From: Nanobdellota archaeon
GTDB taxonomy: Archaea > Nanobdellota > Nanobdellia > SCGC-AAA011-G17 > GW2011-AR17
DNA: 32,431 nucleotides
Direction of reading: 5' to 3'
NCBI GenBank assembly: GCA_013329215.1
Contig: DUKS01000011.1
Span: 1-32,431, forward strand
Position numbers and translations under genes: made by a program. This document shows, in pieces, positions 199 through 17,564 of the stretch. The stretch's first letter is position 1, and every line of letters begins with the position of its first letter. The notes below the pieces were generated by a model, which searched no databases, had not been told where the DNA came from, and saw only the letters and a program-made list of their open reading frames with translations.

Positions 199-945
199 AT
201 GGGGCTTGACGAGTGCTCAGACGAATCTTTTGAAGGTGAATTAAGCGCGCTGAAAAAGCGAATGCACAGGAATAAGGTTCTCGGCGGGCTGGCTGGTGCG
301 GTTGTTGCCCTGGGGCTTTTAGCAGGGCATGCTATAATGTACCGTGAAGCTGCAAACGAGATGTGGGATATTGCGGTTGAAGAATCAATAAACAGGCCTT
401 CCGCGGCAGAGATTGAAGGTATTGCTAGGGGAGTAGATACTCCTGAAGATGCTTTTTCAAAAATAAATGCAGACATAGCGTTCGTATCGGATTTTGACAA
501 AATCAGGCTCGGGAGGCATTATTGGCTGTCTTTGCAGGAAACATACGGGGAAAGGCGGGGCGACTGTGCGGGCGGGGCAATCGCATTCGCAGCAATGCTA
601 AGCGACGACCCGAAATACAGCGTAAAGCTTGTATGCCTGCGAAGGCCGCAAGCAGACCGCCGGCCTAACCACATGATTGCGGCTTATGAAAGCAACGGGC
701 TCTGGGGTGCTGTGTCATTCAACAACAAGACTGCGAGCGGGGAAGAGCAGGAAATATTCATCCCGGCCTCATTTACAGACATTGGGTCTGTAATAGAATA
801 CTTTGACACTGAATATGCAGGCAGCATTTTTGAAAGCTATTTCACAGTAGGGTTTGATGAAGAAGAGCTCAAGTTTGGCAGGGGGCTGCATGATTCCGAG
901 CAGGATAGGTCGCCGCCGATTATGTTTGGGCAGGACGGAGATTAA
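199..945 (+). CDS. membrane-anchored transglutaminase-like protein
   Basis: 248 aa. Residues 1-27 are polar and basic near the membrane, 28-47 form one hydrophobic helix, and the rest should be extracytoplasmic (signal-anchor topology). Residues about 105-180 fit the papain-like transglutaminase core: Cys123 in GDCAGGA on a helix, His158 in PNHM, and an Asn/Asp position near SFNN (173-176). The family hydrolyses or cross-links peptide amides; the actual substrate is unknown. The TATA box lies 26.5 bases upstream, so the mRNA is leaderless and the ATG at 199 is well supported. It follows a transposase tail and precedes an unrelated gene with its own promoter. The third catalytic residue is unclear, so activity is uncertain. 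Confidence 0.6.
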   Translation: MGLDECSDESFEGELSALKKRMHRNKVLGGLAGAVVALGLLAGHAIMYREAANEMWDIAVEESINRPSAAEIEGIARGVDTPEDAFSKINADIAFVSDFDKIRLGRHYWLSLQETYGERRGDCAGGAIAFAAMLSDDPKYSVKLVCLRRPQADRRPNHMIAAYESNGLWGAVSFNNKTASGEEQEIFIPASFTDIGSVIEYFDTEYAGSIFESYFTVGFDEEELKFGRGLHDSEQDRSPPIMFGQDGD

Positions 946-969
946 CGAACATTTAAATAGGTAAGGGCA

Positions 970-976
970 TATATAA
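970..976 (+). promoter_or_regulatory. TATA box, leader and SD site for the gene at 1034
   Basis: TATATAA at 970-976 would start transcription near 999, leaving a leader of about 35 bases with an SD site GGGAG at 1024-1028, five bases before the ATG. A second box, TTTAAATA at 952-959, could give a longer leader. This differs from the leaderless layout of most neighbours. Confidence 0.5.
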
Positions 977-1033
977 CAAATAACAACGCAAAATTGCTTT
1001 GCAGCAGCCACAGAAACCTGTAAGGGAGAATAA

Positions 1034-2209
1034 ATGGAAACAAACAGATTCCAATCGCTTGTGCGCCAGGACTATGAATACATGAGGCGCGCTATTTCTC
1101 TCTGCATAAGCTATCGCGCAAGGGAGCTCCTTCTTATGCAATCAGTAGAAGGCCATGCGATACAGGGCGACGGGGCGTTCAAGGAAACAGTGTGTGTACT
1201 AAAAACAAGGGGGGGCAGGAAACGGAAGGTATACCTGAAGGAACAAAGAGAACCATTGAAGTTTCCTGAAACAACAATAGATGATGTAGTTAATGCACTG
1301 GGTCATGATACTGCAGCAATCAAAGAAGAAAGGCAGCAGCCCATAACTGCAGTGATAGACTTTTTCCACAGGCTCATGGCAGGGGAACAACTCACCAGCT
1401 ATACAGACAGAAACGGCAAACCCCTGTTTGGGATGACTTTTCTAGAGGGCATGAGATTGGAAAACCCGGCGCACACAATCATAGGCGGTTACTTTGGCGG
1501 AAGAATGGACAAGTATATCGGCTGGAGGCAGGAATCAGAAAAAGTATATGGCGTTCAAACCGGCGGCGGGGAATGCATAGGCATTAACAGGAGAAAAGCG
1601 AAAGAGGCAGGCATCGCGCTTGAGCAGCTTGCAACAAAAGAGCATACGCAGGAAGAAGTTGCTGCACTCATCGCAAAAGGAATCCTGTGCTGGGATGTGG
1701 AATCAGGCCCTGATATTGTAAGCGGGTATGTGAGGTGCAAGCAAGGATTTGGCACAAGCGACGACCTTGCTGTCTTGCTGGCTGGCCGCCTGTTCAGCTA
1801 TGACGCGGCAATCGGGCTTTTCCTTGCAGATGCGATTGACACATGGGACAAGTATGTGCCATTTATCCATAAAAGCGGGCAGGATGAGAAGCTTGGCGAA
1901 GAAATTTGTGGCCAAGCGGCAAGCATCAGCAAAAATGTCCCGCAATTCAGGCTGCCTGCAAAAGAAGAAGTCTTAAAGTTCATTGCATTAATTGCAGAGT
2001 CAAATTATGATGTTATGACAAGCAGCTCGCAGAGGTACTTTCTTCAGGTTCCAAGGTATTCAAAGCAATGCGCAATAGAAAGCTATATCAACTATATCCG
2101 CACATGGGAAAGAGGGTCTGAAATGCATGTGGGCCATCCACTAAGCGGGCTTTCAAATCACGGCATGTTTGACAGGTTCGAAGCAAAGTGTGAACAACTA
2201 TATAATTAG
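1034..2209 (+). CDS. protein of unknown function, 391 aa
   Basis: I do not recognise the family. It is a soluble-looking protein without a signal peptide or membrane helix. The N-terminal third is rich in Arg/Lys (GGRKRK near residue 60). A glycine-rich stretch, HTIIGGYFGGRMDKYIGW then TGGGECIGINRRK, lies around residues 140-190. An alpha-helical C-terminal half follows, with several isolated cysteines. The start is fixed by GGGAG five bases upstream. The gene ends in TAG and faces the minus-strand gene at 2217-2717 with seven bases between stops. The real coding frame is clear from length and codon use; no function is offered. Confidence 0.75.
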   Translation: METNRFQSLVRQDYEYMRRAISLCISYRARELLLMQSVEGHAIQGDGAFKETVCVLKTRGGRKRKVYLKEQREPLKFPETTIDDVVNALGHDTAAIKEERQQPITAVIDFFHRLMAGEQLTSYTDRNGKPLFGMTFLEGMRLENPAHTIIGGYFGGRMDKYIGWRQESEKVYGVQTGGGECIGINRRKAKEAGIALEQLATKEHTQEEVAALIAKGILCWDVESGPDIVSGYVRCKQGFGTSDDLAVLLAGRLFSYDAAIGLFLADAIDTWDKYVPFIHKSGQDEKLGEEICGQAASISKNVPQFRLPAKEEVLKFIALIAESNYDVMTSSSQRYFLQVPRYSKQCAIESYINYIRTWERGSEMHVGHPLSGLSNHGMFDRFEAKCEQLYN

Positions 2210-9128: not shown

Positions 9129-9401
9129 ATAAAGAAAATGGATAATAATCAGATAAAAGGGAAGATACTGCACAAGCTGCTGAGAGCAGGCAAGATAGAA
9201 GCAAGCCACACAGCAATTGAAAATCTGCACAAGGGCTTTCCAAAGGACATGGCAGGCAAAGTAAAAGATAATGTCAAAGAGCTTGTAAAAGATGGCATCC
9301 TGCTTGAGAAGCATACAATCTATGGCGTGCAGATTTCAATAAATATTGAGCATTCTGAGAAGATAAAGGAATATATTAGAATTTTTCTTATGCAGGATTA
9401 A
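9123..9401 (+). CDS. small winged-helix DNA-binding protein
   Basis: 92 aa. The sequence is a compact wHTH: helix IKGKILHKLLRAGKI, helix HTAIENLHKGFPK, a recognition-type helix AGKVKDNVKELVKDG and a beta wing ILLEKHTIYGVQISIN. The C-terminal helix (EKIKEYIRIFL) may mediate dimer contacts. Small single-domain proteins of this type are common in archaea as local regulators. An ATG at 9138 is also possible but the TATA spacing favours 9123. The last 14 bases overlap the convergent gene ending at 9388. Its target is unknown; the inverted repeat over its own start suggests autoregulation. Confidence 0.7.
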   Translation: MNIKKMDNNQIKGKILHKLLRAGKIEASHTAIENLHKGFPKDMAGKVKDNVKELVKDGILLEKHTIYGVQISINIEHSEKIKEYIRIFLMQD

Positions 9402-9624
9402 TTAGCTTTTTTTTATACGCAGCAACAGCCGCATCTTCCGCAAAGCCAACAACCAAAGAATATATCTTTCCAGCCAATTCATCAATCTGCCTTACAAGCT
9501 CATCTTTCCTGTCGTAAAAAGGCAGCCCGCAATCCGCTGAATTCTCATTCATTCCGGGCACTGCCGTGAGTATTTTGTTCTCAATTGTTTTTCTGTTAAT
9601 GCTTTTGTTTTCCATTTTGCTCAT
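9388..9624 (-). CDS. operon gene 12: small protein, unknown function
   Basis: 78 aa, last gene of the 12-gene minus-strand operon (13836 to 9388). It is soluble and mostly helical, with a short helix DELVRQIDELAGKIYSLVVGFAEDAAVAAYKKK at 41-73 that could form a coiled coil. It starts in an ATGA overlap with the stop of the preceding gene, so translation is probably coupled. I recognise no domain. It overlaps the convergent wHTH gene by 14 bases. Confidence 0.6.
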   Translation of the reverse strand: MSKMENKSINRKTIENKILTAVPGMNENSADCGLPFYDRKDELVRQIDELAGKIYSLVVGFAEDAAVAAYKKKLINPA

Positions 9625-10139
9625 TCTTTTTCCTGTAATTCAGGTTCCAGTTCTGAAAAATTCAAGCCAATGGTGCTATAAGGATATTTGTCCTGCAGTT
9701 CGCAAGCATCATCTACAAGCTGTTTCAGGCTGTAATCAGGCATAAATTCATGGATATCTACCGCTGCCATCAATCCTTCGTGTTCCCCTTCCGTGTCACC
9801 GTCAAGACCAAGCACCGGTTTTGTTATCCTTCCGAGAACCCTTGACTGAATTTTCCTTTCTTCAAGAAGCGCCGCAACTATGCCGAATATTTTATCATCC
9901 GGAAAATACCTGGAAAATGTTTCCTTGCTGAAAGCCAGAAGGCCCATCTCACCCATGCACATATATCTTGTGCCGTCATCTTCCGGAGGATAAGCTATAA
10001 AAGTGGATGTGCGAAAATCCACTTTCTGCCCAAAAGGCACCTTGTCAAGCGAACTCCACTCAACCTGCCGGTAAGTTAATTCTTTATCTGTCATAGGCAA
10101 TATTTCATCAAGCGGCTTTCCGCTTTCTGTATTTACCAT
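9621..10139 (-). CDS. operon gene 11: unknown protein, 172 aa
   Basis: Soluble, acidic protein with no signal peptide or membrane helix. I recognise no family. Central strands carry RTSTFIAYPPEDDGTRYMCMGEMG, followed by a helical region and a C-terminal acidic tail (LEPELQEKE). The start chosen is the ATG at 10139, because AAGGAG at 10149-10154 lies nine bases upstream. The ATG at 10166 is in frame but lacks a clear SD site and would overlap the previous gene by 34 bases. With the chosen start the overlap with gene 10 is seven bases. It follows the transglutaminase-like genes directly and may be their partner or substrate (inference from position only). Confidence 0.6.
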   Translation of the reverse strand: MVNTESGKPLDEILPMTDKELTYRQVEWSSLDKVPFGQKVDFRTSTFIAYPPEDDGTRYMCMGEMGLLAFSKETFSRYFPDDKIFGIVAALLEERKIQSRVLGRITKPVLGLDGDTEGEHEGLMAAVDIHEFMPDYSLKQLVDDACELQDKYPYSTIGLNFSELEPELQEKE

Positions 10140-10717
10140 AAGTAATATCTCCTTCCCTGCTTCCATTCGTCAGGCACTATGAACTGCCCTGTCTTCTCGT
10201 CAATTCCAATCACAGGGGCAATATACGAATTAGTTATCTTTCCTGTTTCATCCTTCCTAAGTGGGTTGTGGGCATCAACAAGATAAGGGCTTCCATTTCT
10301 GTAAACTATATTGAATGCATGCCACCCTGCTCCAACAACTCCTTCCTCTTCAAAAACCCCGCTGATAAGAAATGATGCTTCGCCTTTCTGCGCAGACAAT
10401 TGCACAAGCACTGCCTTTTCAAGGCATTCGCCAAGCTTTGCATTAAACGCCTGTGAAAATGGGATTACCTCCCTGCCGCCAAACAGTTCAAACATATCTT
10501 TCAGCAAAGGCTTATTAAAAGCCCTATAAGCCGGACCGTATGGAACAGTCCCTTCAGGAAAATCCCCCAGCTTCCTGTAAATCTCTTCATCATCAATTTC
10601 ATAGCCCATGCCGGTTGCTTTGCGCACAACAGAGCCTTTTTCCAGCTTGCTTGTTACAACTCTTGGATATGATTCAGCAAGCTCCTCAAGGCACTGCCTA
10701 ATTTCATCTGGATTCAT
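10133..10717 (-). CDS. operon gene 10: transglutaminase/papain-like protein with intact triad
   Basis: 194 aa, cytosolic-looking. The C-terminal half fits a transglutaminase-like cysteine-peptidase core: Cys98 at the start of a helix (GECLEKAVLVQL), His133 in a strand (AGWHAFNIV) and Asp148 after the next strand (PYLVDAHNP). The Cys...His...Asp order and the spacing (35 and 15 residues) are right for the family. Such enzymes hydrolyse or cross-link amide bonds; the target is unknown. The start is supported by AGGAGG a few bases upstream and a 14-base overlap with gene 9. Gene 9 aligns with it around the same motifs but lacks Cys and His, suggesting an enzyme/pseudoenzyme pair. Confidence 0.6.
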   Translation of the reverse strand: MNPDEIRQCLEELAESYPRVVTSKLEKGSVVRKATGMGYEIDDEEIYRKLGDFPEGTVPYGPAYRAFNKPLLKDMFELFGGREVIPFSQAFNAKLGECLEKAVLVQLSAQKGEASFLISGVFEEEGVVGAGWHAFNIVYRNGSPYLVDAHNPLRKDETGKITNSYIAPVIGIDEKTGQFIVPDEWKQGRRYYLW

Positions 10718-11318
10718 CCGGCCTCCTGTAGTCCAAGCCTGTTGCCCGTCTCATATTGCCAACATAACCCCTTGCAGCATCAAGAATAAACACTTCGCCT
10801 TGTGAGTTTGTGTACCTGCACCATGTGAGCCCGGCATTCCGGTCTATGCTCGGGCTTCCGCTTATGAAGCCGTCCCTTTTGAAAAGCTCCAACAGAACGC
10901 CGCAAGCCAAAGCCATGTGCCTGTCAATGCCTGTATGTGTGTTGATAAACACGCCAAGGCTGACTTTTCCGTCATTTTCGCAATGCAGGTGCGTTGCAAG
11001 CATCCGCACAGCCTCCTCGTCCTGAACAGTTATCGCTTCTTTTACAGTATCATGCACTGCCTTCAAAACCAGGCGCTTTACAGCTTCCTTTTCAACAAGG
11101 TGCGTAAGGGCTTTCCTCTTTGCCTGCTCGTAAAGAGCAAGTATTGCAGGCTCAGCCGCAGAATCCACCACCACTGCTTCGCTCTGCTCTGCGCCAAGAT
11201 AAACTCCGCCGTCAATATGAGAATCTCTTTGTATTATGTTCCGGCCTCTGTATGAATTTCCTTCAATCCGGTTTTCAAGCCTTTTTTTCATCCTTTGTGT
11301 TGTGTCCCAGTTTGCCAT
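10704..11318 (-). CDS. operon gene 9: inactive-looking transglutaminase-fold paralogue
   Basis: 204 aa from the ATG at 11318 (AGGT and GGAG sites upstream; a GTG at 11330 is the alternative). The C-terminal half aligns with gene 10: a helix RHMALACGVLLEL, an ISG segment, then AGLTWCRYTN and FILDAARG. In a gapless alignment of the last segment, the His of gene 10 is Thr165 here and the Asp is kept (Asp180). The catalytic Cys position is His134. A nearby Cys139 has no His partner, so hydrolase activity is doubtful. The N-terminal half is helical and charged. It may regulate or bind gene 10 product or the same substrate; this is inference. Confidence 0.55.
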   Translation of the reverse strand: MANWDTTQRMKKRLENRIEGNSYRGRNIIQRDSHIDGGVYLGAEQSEAVVVDSAAEPAILALYEQAKRKALTHLVEKEAVKRLVLKAVHDTVKEAITVQDEEAVRMLATHLHCENDGKVSLGVFINTHTGIDRHMALACGVLLELFKRDGFISGSPSIDRNAGLTWCRYTNSQGEVFILDAARGYVGNMRRATGLDYRRPDESR

Positions 11319-11320
11319 TT

Positions 11321-11692
11321 TTACCTGCACTCCTCATACGGTTTTGAAATGTCATGCCCGCAGGCGCGATAGTTAAAAAAAGGATTCCCGTTTGCATCAA
11401 TCTCAACACTATACAGCCTGCTGATCCCGTCTTTGCCTGTTATGTCCACCAAAGTTTCCTGCTTTCCGTTGCCGTCAAGGTCCTCTGCAAAAGGGCCCTC
11501 TATGCTCTCAGCAGGTATATTGCCTTTTTCAGGCTGGTAATTCCACATTTTCACCTCATCAACCGCCTTGGGCGTTAAAATGCCAAGCACGTAGCCGAAT
11601 ACAATGCCGCAGCCAATGCCAATTCTTAGGCTTTTGGAATGCTCCTTTGACCGCTTTACTGCATTATCAAGAAACTCATTCTTTCCTCTCAT
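11321..11692 (-). CDS. operon gene 8: single-helix membrane protein with Ca-loop-like repeats
   Basis: 123 aa. A basic N-terminal stretch is followed by one membrane helix (about 22-40, Gly-rich: RIGIGCGIVFGYVLGIL). The outer domain carries DLDGNGKQE (71-79) and DANGN (99-103), which resemble calcium-binding or FG-GAP loops, and ends with two cysteines (CGHD ... EECR). By the positive-inside rule the C-terminal domain is outside. It overlaps gene 7 by 17 bases. The same D-x-D/N-G-N-G-K-Q motif appears in the secreted protein at 2217-2717. Confidence 0.6.
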   Translation of the reverse strand: MRGKNEFLDNAVKRSKEHSKSLRIGIGCGIVFGYVLGILTPKAVDEVKMWNYQPEKGNIPAESIEGPFAEDLDGNGKQETLVDITGKDGISRLYSVEIDANGNPFFNYRACGHDISKPYEECR

Positions 11693-12035
11693 CTTGCCCC
11701 TCCCTCATGTCAACGCTTAATAGCTTATACCCCAAAAGGAAAGTCCTGCCCTGCAGTTCCTGGGTGACCGGCATATAGCTTAGTGTTACCTTGTCCCCCC
11801 TATGGAATGTGTTGAATACGCCTCTGTTGTTAACAGTAAATGAAATAGGATTGCCTGTAAAAGTAACATAAGTGTCATATTCTATGAAACTGAGCCTGGG
11901 AAATGCCCTCTCATTAAGCCCGTCACAATCCATCTCATCAGGTATCTCATTCCTGCACAGCCATCTTTCTGTCACTTCTGCATCCTGAGAAACAACACGC
12001 GAAAGGTCTGCAGCCTGCAGGGTTGCAAGTTTCAT
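11676..12035 (-). CDS. operon gene 7: beta-rich protein, unknown function
   Basis: 119 aa, no signal peptide or membrane helix. Predicted mostly beta strands in the middle (SFIEYDTYVTFTG, ISFTVNNRG, VTLSYMPVT) with a charged, Glu/Arg-rich C-terminus. Two cysteines lie at 27 and 37. The start ATG at 12035 is preceded by GAGGAG six bases upstream, formed by the last codons of gene 6. No family recognised. Confidence 0.6.
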   Translation of the reverse strand: MKLATLQAADLSRVVSQDAEVTERWLCRNEIPDEMDCDGLNERAFPRLSFIEYDTYVTFTGNPISFTVNNRGVFNTFHRGDKVTLSYMPVTQELQGRTFLLGYKLLSVDMREGQDERKE

Positions 12036-12037
12036 TT

Positions 12038-12214
12038 TTACTCCTCGTCCCCGTTAAACTGCGTTGACACTCCGCCTACAGATGCAACTATGCCTCTCTG
12101 CTTCAGCTCATTCAGGAAAAATTCCACATTGTTTGCAAGCTGCTCAGGATTAGTCTTGTCAGTGATGTTAACATCAATGCTTATCCTGCTCGGCTTGAAT
12201 TGTTTTGGTTCCAT
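12038..12214 (-). CDS. operon gene 6: 58-aa protein, unknown function
   Basis: A small soluble protein with a strand (SRISIDVNIT), a helix (PEQLANNVEFFLNELKQRG) and a second strand (IVASVGGV). That is the size and order of a half ferredoxin-like or dodecin-like unit that would have to oligomerise. AAGGAGG at 12223-12229 is eight bases before the ATG at 12214 and only two before the ATG at 12220, so 12214 is preferred. Its position between gene 5 (eight bases upstream) and gene 7 shows cotranscription. Confidence 0.55.
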   Translation of the reverse strand: MEPKQFKPSRISIDVNITDKTNPEQLANNVEFFLNELKQRGIVASVGGVSTQFNGDEE

Positions 12215-12227
12215 TTTCATTTCCTCC

Positions 12228-12587
12228 TTACATATAGCTGCGCGCTATTCCCCCTATGAATTTTCCTACTAGATGTAGCGTAAGAGCGCCAACACCTATT
12301 CCTGCAACATTAATTCCGTCTGATACCATACTTGGACCAATTGAAGACATTTCGGACTCTGGCGGATAAGAATATGTAATCTCATGCGCTTTCACACGCA
12401 AAGGCAATGCTGCTGCAGTTGCTGCAAATGCTGTGTAATCTAAAGCCCCTAAGTTGTCATTACCTGTATAGCCTTCTGCGAATCCTTCCGCAAGCCACGC
12501 AAGACCACCAATAGTTAAAGCCGCTTTGTCTGCGACTAAGATTGCCTTGTCCAACTTTTGTCTTGTTTCAGGTTTCATTTTAATCAC
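12228..12587 (-). CDS. operon gene 5: small polytopic membrane protein
   Basis: 119 aa with hydrophobic stretches at about 15-36, 50-63 and 91-114, Gly/Ala-rich, the last ending in ARSYM. The start is a GTG at 12587 whose GTGA overlaps the stop of gene 4; an ATG at 12578 is the alternative. GGAG at 12592-12595 fits the GTG better. No family recognised. Confidence 0.5.
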   Translation of the reverse strand: MIKMKPETRQKLDKAILVADKAALTIGGLAWLAEGFAEGYTGNDNLGALDYTAFAATAAALPLRVKAHEITYSYPPESEMSSIGPSMVSDGINVAGIGVGALTLHLVGKFIGGIARSYM

Positions 12588-12721
12588 TTTGCTCCATTTG
12601 GCGGAGCATGGTTTTGCCTGTCATAGGCTTCTATGCAAGTTGCGCCCCCGCATGTGGAATCAGCAACTGCCAAGGCTAATGTAATCCCTGCCACTGCTCC
12701 GGCTTTCTTGAAAAAGCTCAT
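12584..12721 (-). CDS. operon gene 4: 45-aa membrane peptide
   Basis: This gene is too short for usual gene finders. It starts with an ATGA overlap of the gene 3 stop, preceded by GGGGGAT, and ends in a TGA that overlaps the gene 5 start. It encodes a short basic start (SFFKKAG), one hydrophobic helix (about 8-20) and a Cys-containing tail (STCGGATC, then NHAPPNGAK). Both-end overlaps within a run of overlapping genes make it likely to be real. It could be a membrane-anchored peptide or a small signal-peptide protein. Confidence 0.55.
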   Translation of the reverse strand: MSFFKKAGAVAGITLALAVADSTCGGATCIEAYDRQNHAPPNGAK

Positions 12722-13008
12722 CTTATCCCCCTTATTACTCCCCTCTCATAAAAAAATGAAATATCCCTTAGGACAGTTTCCTGTGATATTCCATGATTGG
12801 CAGCAGTCCTCAGCATTTGCCCTAAATAGACTTCCATAACTGGAAAAGCCCCAAAAAGGCGTTCAAATTTTGCCTGCGCCAACGCAACGCCATAACTCAT
12901 TGTAGGCACCTGCTCTGCCCGCAAAGGCGCATCTGCAATAACCTGTTTCGGGTTAATTTTTAGGAGGCGCTCTTTAAGCACATGAAATACATTAGAGTCT
13001 AATGTCAT
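12718..13008 (-). CDS. operon gene 3: small helical protein, unknown function
   Basis: 96 aa, soluble and alpha-helical. The C-terminal part (TAANHGISQETVLRDISFFYERGVIRGIR) has the look of a helix-turn-helix or a helical bundle, but the match is not strong enough to call DNA binding. AAGGAG lies six bases before the ATG at 13008. Its stop overlaps gene 4. Confidence 0.6.
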   Translation of the reverse strand: MTLDSNVFHVLKERLLKINPKQVIADAPLRAEQVPTMSYGVALAQAKFERLFGAFPVMEVYLGQMLRTAANHGISQETVLRDISFFYERGVIRGIR

Positions 13009-13018
13009 TTTTTTCTCC

Positions 13019-13372
13019 TTACTCCAGCAACATATCCATTCTTACGCAGTGTGCATATCCAATGCTCGCTGCATAGTTCCCCACTAACCGTTCTACAAGA
13101 GATTGCGGTGCTGGTATATAAAGAGGCTGCAAGTCTTTCGGCCCCCCTCTTTCTTTTAGGATATCAGGCCATATCGCGGAACCCACCTCTATTTCTCTGC
13201 GGTCATTATCTATTTGAATATTGCCTGCACCACATATCTTACCGTGGCCATGCAGATACATTTCGACTGCCCGCTCTACTTCTATATCTCCTGCCAGCAT
13301 CTTATAAACCCCGGCCCCATAGTGCATAATTACAAAAGGGAATACTCCTGTTGGCGGATTGTCTGTTTCCAT
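13019..13372 (-). CDS. operon gene 2: unknown protein, 117 aa
   Basis: Soluble-looking, with a His/Gly segment (YLHGHGKICGAG) near 39-50 and a DNDRREIEVG strand following. A Pro-rich PLYIPAPQSL region leads to a C-terminal helix. The two His plus Cys could bind a metal, but there is no recognised motif. It begins two bases after the gene 1 stop and is separated from gene 3 by ten bases. Confidence 0.6.
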   Translation of the reverse strand: METDNPPTGVFPFVIMHYGAGVYKMLAGDIEVERAVEMYLHGHGKICGAGNIQIDNDRREIEVGSAIWPDILKERGGPKDLQPLYIPAPQSLVERLVGNYAASIGYAHCVRMDMLLE

Positions 13373-13374
13373 CT

Positions 13375-13836
13375 TTACTTTCCTCTTCCGTGCGCAGGTA
13401 CTGCGCTTTCAATGTCTTCAACAACATCTTCAAGGTCCGGCACTCTCGGCGGAGCAATTTCAACAGGCGCATCCCTGCATCCTGCGGCTGAAGCTGGCTT
13501 AGGCGGATAATTTCCGCCTTGCGTAACGCTCCCGCCAAGCCTTATGTTTCTGGGCCCCCTGTAATTCTGCTGCGGCACAACAATAATGTACTGCACGCCC
13601 TGCGGGCTGGTATAATTCATCTTATCCTTTACATACTCTACAGTCTGGTTGCCTGCATAATCATTGCCTCTTTTCGGCGCAAGGCTGTGGCCCGGCTTTC
13701 CGACATAATGGCTGTCCAGGTGCCTGTGCCTCGGCGCATCCGGCCCTTCCTGGCGTTTCTTGCATCCCTCTCCTGAAAGAGCTAACACAAGCGCGCTTAA
13801 AATCAGTGTCGCATTTGCTGCGTCTTTTGTATTCAT
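13375..13836 (-). CDS. operon gene 1: secreted lipoprotein-like Pro/Gly-rich protein
   Basis: 153 aa, first gene of the operon. A hydrophobic segment (10-20) is followed by SGEGC with Cys25, a lipobox-like site though not canonical (Glu at -2). The mature part is rich in Pro, Gly, Arg and Tyr/Asn with little predicted structure (YIIVVPQQNYRGPRN, QGGNYPPKPAS) and ends with an acidic helix (DLEDVVEDIESAV). It is probably exported and surface-attached. The gene has a leader of about 50 bases and a strong AGGAGGGGG SD site 9-10 bases before the ATG, unlike the leaderless genes around it. Confidence 0.6.
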   Translation of the reverse strand: MNTKDAANATLILSALVLALSGEGCKKRQEGPDAPRHRHLDSHYVGKPGHSLAPKRGNDYAGNQTVEYVKDKMNYTSPQGVQYIIVVPQQNYRGPRNIRLGGSVTQGGNYPPKPASAAGCRDAPVEIAPPRVPDLEDVVEDIESAVPAHGRGK

Positions 13837-13883
13837 GTTCTTACCCCCTCCTGTGTTTTGAGAGTCAGGAAAACTCTTTACTT

Positions 13884-13905
13884 GTTACTATTTATTAGAT
13901 GTAAC
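13884..13905. promoter_or_regulatory. inverted repeat at the operon transcription start
   Basis: GTTAC (13884-13888) and GTAAC (13901-13905) form an inverted repeat with a 12-base spacer. It lies just downstream of the TATA box, over the expected minus-strand start near 13886, so it may be an operator for the 12-gene operon. Confidence 0.4.
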
Positions 13906-13908
13906 TAA

Positions 13909-13916
13909 TATATAAA
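13909..13916. promoter_or_regulatory. TATA box usable in both directions: operon and candidate RNA
   Basis: TATATAAA reads TTTATATA on the other strand. On the minus strand it would start the 12-gene operon near 13886, giving a leader of about 50 bases. On the plus strand a start 26.5 bases after the box centre falls at 13939, precisely the first base of a strong hairpin. Confidence 0.55.
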
Positions 13917-14055: not shown

Positions 14056-14484
14056 TTATTCAGATTCAGCTTCCTGCTTTAGTCTTGCAATAATTCCTCT
14101 AAACTCAAGCTCATTTCTTTTCAGGTAATCACTTCTTGCATTAAATCCGCGGTAGCCAATGCTGTTCCTTACTATCCTAAGCTCATCTATTTTGGCGATT
14201 TCATACTCAAAATCAGGTATAGTTTTTGCAAGATATGCAATAAAGCATATATGGTTCGTGCAATCATACCCTTTCTTCTACAGCAGCGCAAATGCAATCT
14301 CTTTTATTATCTCATAATATCCTTCTATCTTTAAGGCCGCAAACTTTGCTTCAATAGACCTGCTCCAAAATTCCAGGCGCAGCATTGCCATTTTCAGCAC
14401 TTCTTTTGTCCGCTGTATGTCAGGGGGCATGGTTAAGGCCAGTTTATGTCGTATGCAATCATCCCAATCTAACTTCTCTGCCAT
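14056..14484 (-). pseudogene. HEPN-domain toxin-like gene interrupted by an in-frame TAG
   Basis: The frame from the ATG at 14484 gives 68 codons, then TAG at 14278-14280, then 73 more sense codons in the same frame to a TAA at 14056-14058. Joined, the ~142-residue protein reads as a HEPN-type helical domain: GYYEIIKEIAFALL, the stop, KKGYDCTNHICFIAYL, then KIDELRIVRNSIGYRGF. The last segment occupies the place of the HEPN R-x4-6-H RNase motif, with Tyr where His is usual, so even the intact form might not be a classical nuclease. HEPN proteins pair with MNT nucleotidyltransferases as toxin-antitoxin systems, and an HTH-MNT gene lies 129 bases upstream. TAG ends several normal genes here, so this is most simply a nonsense mutation. 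Confidence 0.7.
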
Positions 14485-15260: not shown

Positions 15261-16985
15261 TTACTTTCTGCTTTTCGGGACAGCCCTTGGTTTATGCGCG
15301 GCAGCTGTCTGTCTTCTCCTTTCCGCTTCTGCCTGCCGTGCCGCACTTTGTGCCTCTTGCTGCTTCTGCCATGCAGCCAGTTTTTTATCTTTCTCTTCCT
15401 GTGCCAAGCGCTCTCTTTTTATTTTTTCTTCCTGTGCCAGGCGCTCTCTTTTTATTTTTGCCTCGCGCGCCATCTCTTCAGTATGCTTGGCTGCTTTTTC
15501 TGCTATCTCTCTTGTCATTCTTTCACTTGCTTCCTTTCTTGCGTTCAGGGTTTTTTTCTCAGCTTCTTTCTTTAAAAATTCCATCCTCTCCTTTTCAGTC
15601 ATTTCTTTTGCCGTGGCCCATTTTTCTTGTTTTAACTCTTCCTGCATCCTTTGCAGCTCGGCTTCTCTTTCCTGCTCAGTTTTTACCGCTTTTTTAGTTT
15701 CAGCTGTGCCAGCCTGAAGTTCCCTTCTTTCTGTGGCGCGCACCGATTTCAATTCTTTCGCAACTCTCAATTTTTCCTCTCTTGCAAGCCTTTCCGCGTT
15801 TTCTCTTTCTGCTATTGCAAGCCTCTCTTTCTCTTCCTTTGCAAGGCGCTCTTTCTTTTCCCTCTCAATCCTTGCGCTCTCTTCCTTCTCCCTTATCTTC
15901 AGCATGTTTGCTTCATGTTCCTGCTTTAATCTTTCCTGATAGAGCCTGTTTTCTTCCGCCTTTATCCTGTCTCTTTCCGCCTGTATCCTCTCCCTATCAA
16001 GCAATTCCTGCGGCGTCGGCTTTTTCAGCGCGTCTTTCAGTTTTTCCTTTCCAGTCTCCCACCATTTTTTCGCGCCTTCGCCCATCCATTTTCTTGCCCT
16101 GTCCCAGGCTTCCCTTCTTTTCCTGATGCTCTCCTCTCTTTTCCTGATTCTGGACTGCTGCCTATCGTTTTTCCTTCTCTCCTTCTCTTCCAGCGCCAGG
16201 CGCTTTCTCTTCTCTTCCTCATCCCTTTCAAGCGTTTTCCTTTTCTGCTTTTCCTCTATCTTGATATTCGCGCCTTTCAGCTTTTCCATCTGCTGCTGGT
16301 GGCTTCTGTCTCTCCATCTTTCCCAGAGGCTAGGCTTTTTTGTTTTTCCCTCTCCGCCTGTGCCTTTATCCTCGCTTTTTTTGCTGCTCGTAAGCAGGTA
16401 GATTAAGAAAAGCACCACAACTGCAACTATAAGCAGTATCCACCAGTTGCCTGAAATCCAGTATGTTGTATCGTCCCATGCCTCAACAAATCCGCCGCTG
16501 AACCCCAATGACCTGAGGAACTGCGGAGAGCCCTTCATCTGCAAAACAGAGAATATCAGAACTGCATAAGCAAGCAAAACAAATATCAGCTTTTTCTTTG
16601 AAAGCTTCCCGTTTGCATCAGTGTCTTCCTTTATGAATATCGTGACAATCGCATAAGGCAATAATGCCAGCGCGGCAAGCCATATCAGGTTGCCGAGCCC
16701 CTTAATCCACATTTCGGGCATGAATTTCATCCCGATAAGGGCTAGTATGGCAGCAACAAGCATGCCTACATTCGCATGCTCCTTAGGGAATGCCTTTTTC
16801 GCGCCAAGCATGAGGAATGAGAACAATATTATGAACAGGCCGAGCTTTACAAATATCCCGCCTGATGTTGTTGCGCCGAAAAGCGTGTCCACGCCCTGCT
16901 CAATGAGCCCTTTTTCAGCAGCAAACACAGAAGGGGCTAATGCAAGAACAGAGCTTCCTATAGTTATTGCTTTAATGGCTCTCAT
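15261..16985 (-). CDS. polytopic membrane protein with a very long charged coiled coil
   Basis: 574 aa. A signal peptide (1-22, cleavage after VFA) is followed by about five membrane helices between 40 and 202 and then roughly 365 cytoplasmic residues of almost uninterrupted Lys/Arg/Glu-rich helix. It contains RER, EEK and REK heptad-like units and two near-identical 11-residue units, IKRERLAQEEK, near 520-545. The tail is Ala/Arg/Lys-rich (AAAHKPRAVPKSRK). The membrane part is paralogous to the next gene (17040-17564): both share KLxLFIxLF, a Met-Pro-x-x-W-I turn, and an ALLPY-type helix. It could anchor a cytoplasmic filament or scaffold to the membrane; function is unknown. The box TTTAAA at 17013-17018 is about 30 bases upstream. 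Confidence 0.7.
   Translation of the reverse strand: MRAIKAITIGSSVLALAPSVFAAEKGLIEQGVDTLFGATTSGGIFVKLGLFIILFSFLMLGAKKAFPKEHANVGMLVAAILALIGMKFMPEMWIKGLGNLIWLAALALLPYAIVTIFIKEDTDANGKLSKKKLIFVLLAYAVLIFSVLQMKGSPQFLRSLGFSGGFVEAWDDTTYWISGNWWILLIVAVVVLFLIYLLTSSKKSEDKGTGGEGKTKKPSLWERWRDRSHQQQMEKLKGANIKIEEKQKRKTLERDEEEKRKRLALEEKERRKNDRQQSRIRKREESIRKRREAWDRARKWMGEGAKKWWETGKEKLKDALKKPTPQELLDRERIQAERDRIKAEENRLYQERLKQEHEANMLKIREKEESARIEREKKERLAKEEKERLAIAERENAERLAREEKLRVAKELKSVRATERRELQAGTAETKKAVKTEQEREAELQRMQEELKQEKWATAKEMTEKERMEFLKKEAEKKTLNARKEASERMTREIAEKAAKHTEEMAREAKIKRERLAQEEKIKRERLAQEEKDKKLAAWQKQQEAQSAARQAEAERRRQTAAAHKPRAVPKSRK
15395..15460 (-). repeat. 33-base tandem repeat within the coiled-coil gene
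   Basis: Two adjacent 33-base copies (starting 15395 and 15428 on the plus strand) encode two copies of an 11-residue heptad-type unit. They differ at only a few bases, which points to recent in-frame duplication. Confidence 0.6.
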
Positions 16986-17039
16986 TTTACGGGTATAGTT
17001 ATAGTGTTTGCATTTAAAAACTTTCCGAGTGGGGCACGA

Positions 17040-17564
17040 TTAATGGCGCTTATGCCCTTCTTCTTCAGCTTTCTTTTTCCCTGCAAACTGCGCAATAACA
17101 AGCAGCGCAAGCGCAGCGCCTATAACTACAGACTGCCACTGGTACATGAAAGTATAGCGCTTCAGCTCTTTCACAGCCTCAAACACAAGCCCGAAACCCC
17201 AGTAGTCAAGCGACAAAAGCACAAGATAAGCCCCGAAGTATGCAGCAACAAGCAGGCCTATCTTAAGCGGGCCCCAGTTGTGGAATATCGCGTCAACAAG
17301 CAGGTAAGGGAGCGCGGCCATTGCAAGCACCCACAGGAATTTTCCAAGAGGCATAATCCACAATAGGGGCATAAGCCTTACCGCAAGCAATGAGATTACA
17401 AGCGAGAACACATTCACAACAAACTTGTTGTCCGGGAAAAGCCGCATTGAGCTTTTGCTGAACAATGCAAAAAGAAGTATGAACAATGAAAGCTTTACTA
17501 TTGCCTCATTCTCATTGGCAACAGAGCCCAAAGCGCCTGAAATTATCCAAGTAAATGCAGACAT
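17040..17564 (-). CDS. polytopic membrane protein, paralogue of the membrane part of the coiled-coil protein
   Basis: 174 aa with about five hydrophobic helices and a short charged tail (KKKAEEEGHKRH). Helix by helix it matches residues 40-165 of the protein at 15261-16985: KLSLFILLFALF, the RLFPDNKFVVNV loop, VRLMPLLWIMPLGKFLW, and AALPYLLVDAIF. It lacks the long coiled-coil extension. The gene lies directly upstream on the same strand, but each has its own promoter-like box (here TTTATTAT near 17587-17594, 26 bases before the ATG). The two may form a hetero-oligomer. No transporter or enzyme motif was seen. Confidence 0.7.
   Translation of the reverse strand: MSAFTWIISGALGSVANENEAIVKLSLFILLFALFSKSSMRLFPDNKFVVNVFSLVISLLAVRLMPLLWIMPLGKFLWVLAMAALPYLLVDAIFHNWGPLKIGLLVAAYFGAYLVLLSLDYWGFGLVFEAVKELKRYTFMYQWQSVVIGAALALLVIAQFAGKKKAEEEGHKRH

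Follow-up and report, generated by a model that had tools for sequence, protein, structure and literature searches.

A promoter and 5' leader that are nearly invariant in four species of one genus precede the minus-strand operon at 9388-13836 of the window (the whole 32,431-nucleotide stretch of contig DUKS01000011.1 analysed here), and this leader is the main new finding of the analysis. Behind the fixed promoter-leader, the operon has a fixed core of g1, g6, g8, and g9 in constant order, with exchangeable genes (g2-g5, g7, g10-g12, and a JAMM-signature protein in the congeneric genome G003) between and around them, an anatomy of which there is little doubt. The many orphan genes of DPANN archaea defy one-by-one guesses at their roles. 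The operon is best read, still tentatively, as a vertically inherited, genus-specific envelope module that is under regulation in a DPANN archaeon, itself probably host-associated, with its cysteine-protease-like enzymes in the cytosol.

Promoter, leader, and operon layout

The TATA box of the operon promoter, TTTATATA (13909..13916, minus strand), is kept in the four species, and the leader block (13844..13891, minus strand) starts approximately 25 bases after it. The leader holds an inverted repeat, AGAGT-N7-ACTCT, at 13861-13877 and a Shine-Dalgarno (SD) sequence, AGGAGGGGG, at 13844-13852. Over its roughly 50 bases, 45 of 49 gap-free aligned columns are invariant in the four species, compared with 17 of 69 and 23 of 147 fourfold sites, and synonymous sites of the same species are close to saturation. 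Each genome in the genus holds one copy, and none was found in 16 further relatives. The first gene after the leader differs between genomes; the G002 leader and core lie on separate contigs. An Rfam search of the leader gave no match up to E 5, no described RNA family or riboswitch fits, and no upstream ORF was seen within the leader upon inspection of its sequence.

The leader may gate the expression of the whole unit in one of two ways, namely, as a DNA operator just past the transcription start, through the repeat AGAGT-N7-ACTCT, or as an RNA element whose UCCUG would pair with the SD and hide it until a signal frees it. A UUUUCCUG-CAGGAGGGG pairing that involves the SD is predicted, of ordinary stability and with one pair broken in G002 among the four sequences. 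Because folding was no better than that of shuffled sequences in three of the four species, and no covarying pairs were seen among the four, SD hiding is put forward as a hypothesis only.

The first-pass annotation had described a unit of 12 near-touching genes, and this was borne out, as the 12 open reading frames (45-208 aa) are separated by no more than about 10 bases or overlap slightly. Comparison with orthologues in the congeners gave dN < dS for g2, g4, g6, g8, g9, g10, and g12 (weakest for g12, g8, and g2), and these are therefore real genes, while for g3, g5, g7, and g11 it is the place in the operon and the SD that suggest a gene. Starts are better trimmed to 12578 (g5), 12214 (g6), 11318 (g9), and 10139 (g11). 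SD-like 4-7-mers precede 11 of the 12 genes, those of g2, g4, and g12 being 4-mers only, and g5 has only a distal GGAG upstream. The unit had also been described as SD-driven amid mostly leaderless genes; its SDs are indeed mostly clear and mostly missing from the first genes of flanking units, but SDs ahead of internal operon genes are normal in archaea, and an internal gene of this window (p230) is preceded by AAGGAGG, so that what is unusual is only that the first gene has an SD leader.

Gene content and order across the genus

In all four species, g1, g6, g8, and g9 occur in the same order at the same site, the arrangement being g1-g6-g8-g9-[g10]-[g12] with g10 and g12 optional. The genes g2, g4, g10, and g12 were found in some of the four genomes, and g3, g5, g7, and g11 in this genome only. 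In G002, g2 and g4 stand in a different order, and in G003 the JAMM-signature gene sits in the middle of the operon. A thiF gene adjoins the operon in all four species, on the opposite strand and with its own start; its dN is 0.08-0.19, against 0.3-1.1 for g2 and g8. A second operon, present in two of the genomes, carries a g2 paralogue along with lipoprotein-like genes and encodes a phosphoesterase-like protein. Toxin-antitoxin-like genes lie next door, neighbours include nucleotidyltransferase/HEPN-like and RelE-like genes, and foreign-looking ATPase genes are inserted near the operon in G002.

The genes are thus not scattered in related archaea, and the earlier view of one multi-part system stands insofar as they belong together, with their order kept at the same site in four species; a fixed twelve-part machine does not, as four genes only are constant and a third occur in one species only. 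Mere co-transcription, in which unrelated small genes share a promoter with no joint action, would explain why four of the 12 genes are confined to this genome and why G002 has a different g2/g4 order, but it is made unlikely by the core, which keeps its content and order in the four species and follows an invariant leader.

Since the operon occupies the same site in all four genus genomes examined and scans of viral contigs gave no relatives, it is chromosomal in this DPANN ('Nanoarchaeota') lineage and not recognisably part of a mobile element. A virus or plasmid origin was rejected: the viral-contig scans were empty for g6, g9, g10, the JAMM protein, and the leader, and the operon contains no mobility gene. 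Family searches of its products recognised neither an integrase nor a replication or capsid gene, in line with the earlier remark that replication and capsid hallmarks were missing, and the suggestion of an integrated element is not supported, in view of the shared locus, the lack of viral relatives and mobility genes, and a GC content like that of the flanks. Repeats between operon genes are short and chance-like, with none that resemble cassettes. Another possibility is a domesticated remnant, in which a common ancestor acquired the block from an old integrated plasmid or virus, the mobility genes were lost, and loss or exchange of cargo is under way in the present species. High gene turnover, the toxin-antitoxin-like neighbours, the ATPase genes inserted in G002, and a g6 without relatives outside the genus speak for it; the empty viral scans, the flank-like GC, and products that include no integrase, replication, or capsid gene leave it improbable.

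A defence system was rejected as well, as PADLOC gave no match. Defence genes show a patchy spread, and the core at one site in four of four species is unlike them. This and the very strong purifying selection on g6 render it quite doubtful that the operon is a conflict or defence locus, with toxin-like enzymes and membrane proteins directed against invaders or competitors and silenced by the leader, a reading to which fast gene turnover, the nucleotidyltransferase/HEPN-like and RelE-like neighbours, and an FHA-fused homologue in another family would lend themselves.

Transglutaminase-fold proteins and the JAMM protein

Pfam searches of all 12 proteins and PHROGs searches of 10 gave nothing significant or above the curated cut-off. 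The two proteins previously called transglutaminase-fold, g9 and g10, do both fall within the transglutaminase superfamily. The g9 protein (204 aa; 10704..11318, minus strand; model pLDDT 90) was compared in alignments of 4 and 11 homologues, of which ten retain Cys, His, and Asp; in this genome, Asp stands in place of Cys and Leu in place of His. The g9 family as a whole thus shows the Cys-His-Asp arrangement, while g9 of this genome is a predicted pseudoenzyme, and the term protease-like pair is right at the superfamily level but not for g9 here. The g10 protein (194 aa; 10133..10717, minus strand) has an intact Cys98-His133-Asp148, invariant in three homologues; homologues occur in G003, G014, and G070, and the protein is truncated in G002. 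At least one intact triad, in g9 or g10, is present in every congener, and whether the transglutaminase-fold proteins act as enzymes is judged about evenly balanced.

The g10 profile matched a Transglut_core protein of G002 (E 8.5e-7), and both proteins are linked to Transglut_core via intermediates. The g9 proteins of the congeners, and g10, share Cys-His-Asp order and spacing with the transglutaminase-like superfamily (PF01841 Transglut_core; DUF553 PF04473), to which paralogues link them; they differ in that no member reaches a Pfam cut-off (DUF553 was sub-threshold for two homologues, and no model exceeded its curated cut-off for g9 and g10 of the window), that PDB sequence searches with both profiles gave no significant match, and that g9 here has lost Cys and His. 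Fold searches of the g9 model gave nothing significant, the insignificant top matches including deubiquitinases, and a direct g9-g10 profile comparison, with very few sequences, gave no alignment. Homologues of g9 in the genome contigs were found by an alignment scan, a single-protein scan being empty. Symbiotic prokaryotes have small cysteine proteases of transglutaminase-like type, the CPR-C4 and vasohibin-like proteins, and CPR-C4, like g9, has 32 residues between Cys and His (PMC9108980); it differs in using Cys-His-Leu(carbonyl) instead of the Asp of g9 and g10, and the sequence and fold matches listed did not include it.

In G003, the JAMM gene lies directly before g9. Its product carries the JAMM/JAB signature E, HxH, S/T-x-x-D, with E24, H80-T-H82, and D102 invariant in four homologues and an HxH-to-S spacing longer than usual; JAB models of Pfam or NCBIfam did not match it within E limits of 1 or 0.5. 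Prokaryotic operons are known in which JAB peptidases, papain-like peptidases, and ubiquitin-like proteins occur together (PMC1779556), and the JAMM-signature gene beside a cysteine-peptidase-fold gene, with thiF near, resembles them. In an intracellular protein-modifier or deconjugation system, the transglutaminase-fold and JAMM proteins would act as isopeptidases, g6 would be a small modifier or a cofactor, and the activating enzyme would come from thiF, which adjoins the operon in four of four species; the deubiquitinases among the insignificant matches of g9 point the same way. Such a system is nevertheless not probable: no ubiquitin-like protein was found here, g6 lacks a C-terminal diglycine and its low-confidence model is mainly one helix, the JAMM gene occurs in one of the four species only, and thiF lies outside the operon, being read from the other strand and from a start of its own.

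Envelope proteins and other small products

The predicted exported g1 protein (153 aa; 13375..13836, minus strand; homologues in G001, G002, and G003) begins with a short hydrophobic segment ending in GC-K, also hydrophobic in the congeners; this fits its earlier description as lipoprotein-like, but the residues ahead of GC do not match the textbook lipobox [LVI][ASTVI][GAS]C. At least three membrane proteins had been proposed, and segments are clear in g5 (116 aa; 12228..12578, minus strand), with two by hydropathy and no homologue at the congeners' loci, and in g8 (123 aa; 11321..11692, minus strand), with a transmembrane anchor at residues 21-39; the 45-aa g4 (12584..12721, minus strand) is a short form of a membrane protein that measures 93-94 aa in G001 and G002, whose N-terminal half it matches at 73% and 53% identity, respectively. 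The reported Ca-loop was confirmed in g8 as DLDGNGKQE, and both the transmembrane segment and D-x-[DN]-x-[DN]-G-x-x-[DE] are retained in all four species. Family searches recognised no exporter or adhesion domain among the operon proteins, and a role in secretion, suggested at first, was not upheld, as no component was recognised.

The most conserved operon protein is g6 (58 aa; 12038..12214, minus strand), with 79-100% identity and dN 0.00-0.12 in the four species; outside the genus, 60 genomes gave only sub-threshold matches. The g2 protein (117 aa; 13019..13372, minus strand) has homologues in G002 and G003 and paralogues in the second operon, and g12 (78 aa; 9388..9624, minus strand) is 59% identical to a G001 protein. 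Among the genes confined to this genome, g3 (96 aa; 12718..13008, minus strand) has an HTH-like C terminus (NirdL-like HTH, E 0.017, below cut-off), g7 (119 aa; 11676..12035, minus strand) matches a second-operon protein very weakly (E 0.08-0.09), and no significant homologue of g11 (172 aa; 9621..10139, minus strand) turned up in the four genomes.

Proposed role of the operon

The envelope module remains the best reading, its anatomy observed and its function inferred. In its favour are the site and order kept in four species, the single-copy leader ahead of different first genes, the anchor and Ca-loop of g8 and the hydrophobic start of g1 in the congeners, the high dN of g2 and g8, the links of g9 and g10 to Transglut_core with an intact triad in every congener, and the second operon. 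The products of g1, g4, g5, and g8 would be anchored at or outside the membrane, and g1, g8, and the soluble g2 may change fast in the manner of surface components facing a partner cell. Fast-evolving surface proteins were reported for Nanoarchaeota in a study of population SNPs in other lineages (PMC6142677), and the small anchored proteins here likewise diverge faster than neighbouring housekeeping genes; the parts of that study drawn on here describe no such operon or leader. Meanwhile, g6 and the transglutaminase-fold proteins would remain cytosolic, where the cysteine-peptidase-like enzyme that is active (g9, or else g10 if g9 is dead) may trim, deamidate, or cross-link a protein, perhaps one encoded by the operon itself. 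These enzymes have no export signal, so that action on surface proteins is not required, which counts against the envelope module, as do the lack of a textbook lipobox in g1, of a recognised exporter or adhesion domain, and of leader folding better than shuffles in three of four species, and the separate contigs of leader and core in G002. Surface remodelling or host-cell contact is the most likely role, although as yet a speculative one. It is possible, at a similarly speculative level, that the conserved promoter-leader governs this genus-specific surface module by SD occlusion or as an operator, with cargo swapped behind a frozen head and core and with g10 having taken over the active peptidase role from g9 in this species.

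A conserved control element thus binds a defined set of orphan genes in which the leader, g1, g6, g8, and g9 are constant and the rest exchangeable, and with these parts separated, a few proteins become worth testing. If the leader does hide the SD, it would be a concrete example of a leader controlling translation, and this in a lineage in which the other first genes of this window mostly look leaderless.

The operon and its site across the genus

As described in the first-pass annotation, twelve ORFs of 45-208 aa (g1 to g12 in transcription order) form a minus-strand unit at 9388-13836, in which neighbours overlap slightly or are separated by about ten bases at most; the preferred start sites are 12578 for g5, 12214 for g6, 11318 for g9, and 10139 for g11. 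Its Shine-Dalgarno (SD) pattern was also borne out: SD-like motifs precede 11 of the 12 genes (4-mers only at g2, g4, and g12; a distal GGAG at g5), and the flanking first genes mostly have none. In archaea, an SD is usual before internal operon genes, and p230, an internal operon gene in the window, is preceded by one; the notable feature is therefore the SD leader on the operon's first gene. The operon is real, conserved, and lineage-specific, with an ordinary outline, and its single unexpected feature is a frozen leader combined with changing first genes.

Contig 54 of a 1.4-Mb genome carries the window. Because its congeners' named records are MAGs with the label Nanoarchaeota or Nanoarchaeia, the source is a DPANN archaeon. 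The three other genomes of the genus that were compared (G001, G002, and G003) all carry the operon at the same site, between a nucleotidyltransferase/HEPN-like pair and thiF, the upstream side in G002 being cut by a contig end. The window's order, leader-g1-g2-g3-g4-g5-g6-g7-g8-g9-g10-g11-g12, corresponds to leader-g1-g4-g6-g8-g9-g12 in G001, to leader-(unrelated gene, contig end) and g1-g4-u81-g2-g6-g8-g9-truncated g10 in G002, and to leader-114-aa membrane protein-g1-g2-g6-g8-JAMM-g9-g10 in G003, where u81 and JAMM are extra genes. We infer that the G002 leader is linked to the core genes, though each is on its own contig. In all four genomes g1, g6, g8, and g9 are constant; no counterpart of g3, g5, g7, or g11 was found in the operon loci of the congeners. 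The locus combines a fixed site, a constant core, exchangeable genes, and a frozen leader.

Beside the nucleotidyltransferase gene, the HEPN-like gene (14058-14484, minus) reads TAG in frame at a codon that specifies Tyr in congeners; because TAG ends 5 of 36 window genes, it is probably broken. G002 alone carries a pair of ATPase-like genes, accompanied by partial copies of thiF, between thiF and the wHTH gene (L008:4670-7447), as if inserted. Two related membrane proteins are encoded at 15261-17564 (minus); one of them ends in a long, charged tail whose length varies in congeners (574 aa for the protein in the window, 807 aa in G001).

The leader

The leader (13844-13891) follows a conserved TATA box, and in its block ATAGTAACAA..AAGAGTTTTCCTGACTCT..AAACACAGGAGGGGGTAA 45 of 49 gap-free columns are invariant across the four species, compared with 17/69 fourfold-degenerate sites in thiF and 23/147 in relA (with a 25% rate as reference, a binomial test gives P of about 6e-23, an approximate figure as sites are non-independent). 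It is single-copy in each of the four genomes and absent from 16 further relatives and from the viral contigs scanned. The gene that follows it varies: the window genome and G001 have g1 there, G003 has a membrane protein, and G002 an unrelated protein, so coding constraint does not account for its conservation. In the consensus fold, pairing between UUUUCCUG and CAGGAGGGG would mask the SD; the fold has ordinary stability in three of four species, zero covarying pairs, and one pair broken in G002, and no Rfam family matches the leader. Alternatively, a DNA operator may lie just past the expected transcription start, in the form of the inverted repeat AGAGT-N7-ACTCT.

Transglutaminase-fold proteins

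Neither g9 nor g10 exceeds the Pfam cut-off. The g9 profile retrieves a paralogue in the window's genome (E 1e-5), and that of g10 retrieves related proteins in G002 (E 8.5e-7; itself Transglut_core, 4.6e-9) and G001 (E 4.2e-5). When 11 g9 proteins, from DPANN archaea as well as several bacterial MAGs, are aligned, all keep Cys, His, and Asp except the window copy (Cys to Asp, His to Leu). All three are retained in g10, so that the triad is intact in g10 in the window genome, in g9 in G001 and G002, and in both in G003, whose g10 lacks about ten C-terminal residues; judged by sequence, every congener thus keeps at least one intact-triad protein. The g9 model is predicted with confidence (pLDDT 90) but has no significant match among solved structures, the top insignificant ones including deubiquitinases.

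In G075, from another family of the order, a g9 homologue is fused to two FHA domains (L046:5289-6647), which suggests phosphoprotein targeting. Some g9 homologues adjoin putative metallopeptidases (motifs HEYSH and HELLGH; no Pfam confirmation), paralleled in G003 by the JAMM-signature gene beside g9. A homologue of the JAMM-signature protein in G052, from another family of the order, overlaps a Cdc48-like AAA ATPase gene (L053:1471-3487). Adjacent radical-SAM-like and transglutaminase-like genes with a nitrilase-like gene (L048:4693-8888 in the window genome; L049:3999-7330 in G001) form a possible peptide-modification cluster. Another transglutaminase-like protein (by motif) and an unknown 391-aa protein are encoded at 199-2209 (plus), without Pfam matches; the pair is kept in G001 and G003.

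Selection

Between congeners, dN is 0.00-0.12 for g6 (79-100% identity), 0.14 for g10, 0.18-0.36 for g9, 0.6-0.9 for g2, and 0.3-1.1 for g8, with dS mostly about 1 or higher and at times saturated; neighbouring thiF has a dN of 0.08-0.19. For g9, the window copy differs from each congener by 0.34-0.36, nearly twofold the 0.18-0.22 among congeners, consistent with the absence of its catalytic Cys and His.

Putative surface parts and proposed role

A TM segment and Ca-loop are found in g8 of all four species; in complete g1 copies the N terminus is hydrophobic and GC comes after it, with no canonical lipobox, and g4 (45 aa) corresponds to the N-terminal half of a protein of 93-94 aa in G001 and G002. 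A second operon, at one chromosomal site common to the window genome (L066:3232-6184) and G003 (L067:3063-6398), encodes a paralogue of g2 together with several lipoprotein-like proteins and a metallophosphoesterase-like lipoprotein (by motifs), making an envelope setting for the main operon more likely. The leader may regulate the whole unit, g1, g4, g5, and g8 may act at the envelope, and the intact-triad enzymes might work as cysteine peptidases, deamidases, or cross-linkers. The whole operon may serve surface remodelling or host contact, beside which stand four rival readings: a domesticated element, an intracellular modifier system, a conflict system, and mere co-transcription. The proposed role draws mainly on general DPANN biology and on the many non-synonymous SNPs reported for Nanoarchaeota hypothetical surface proteins (PMC6142677).
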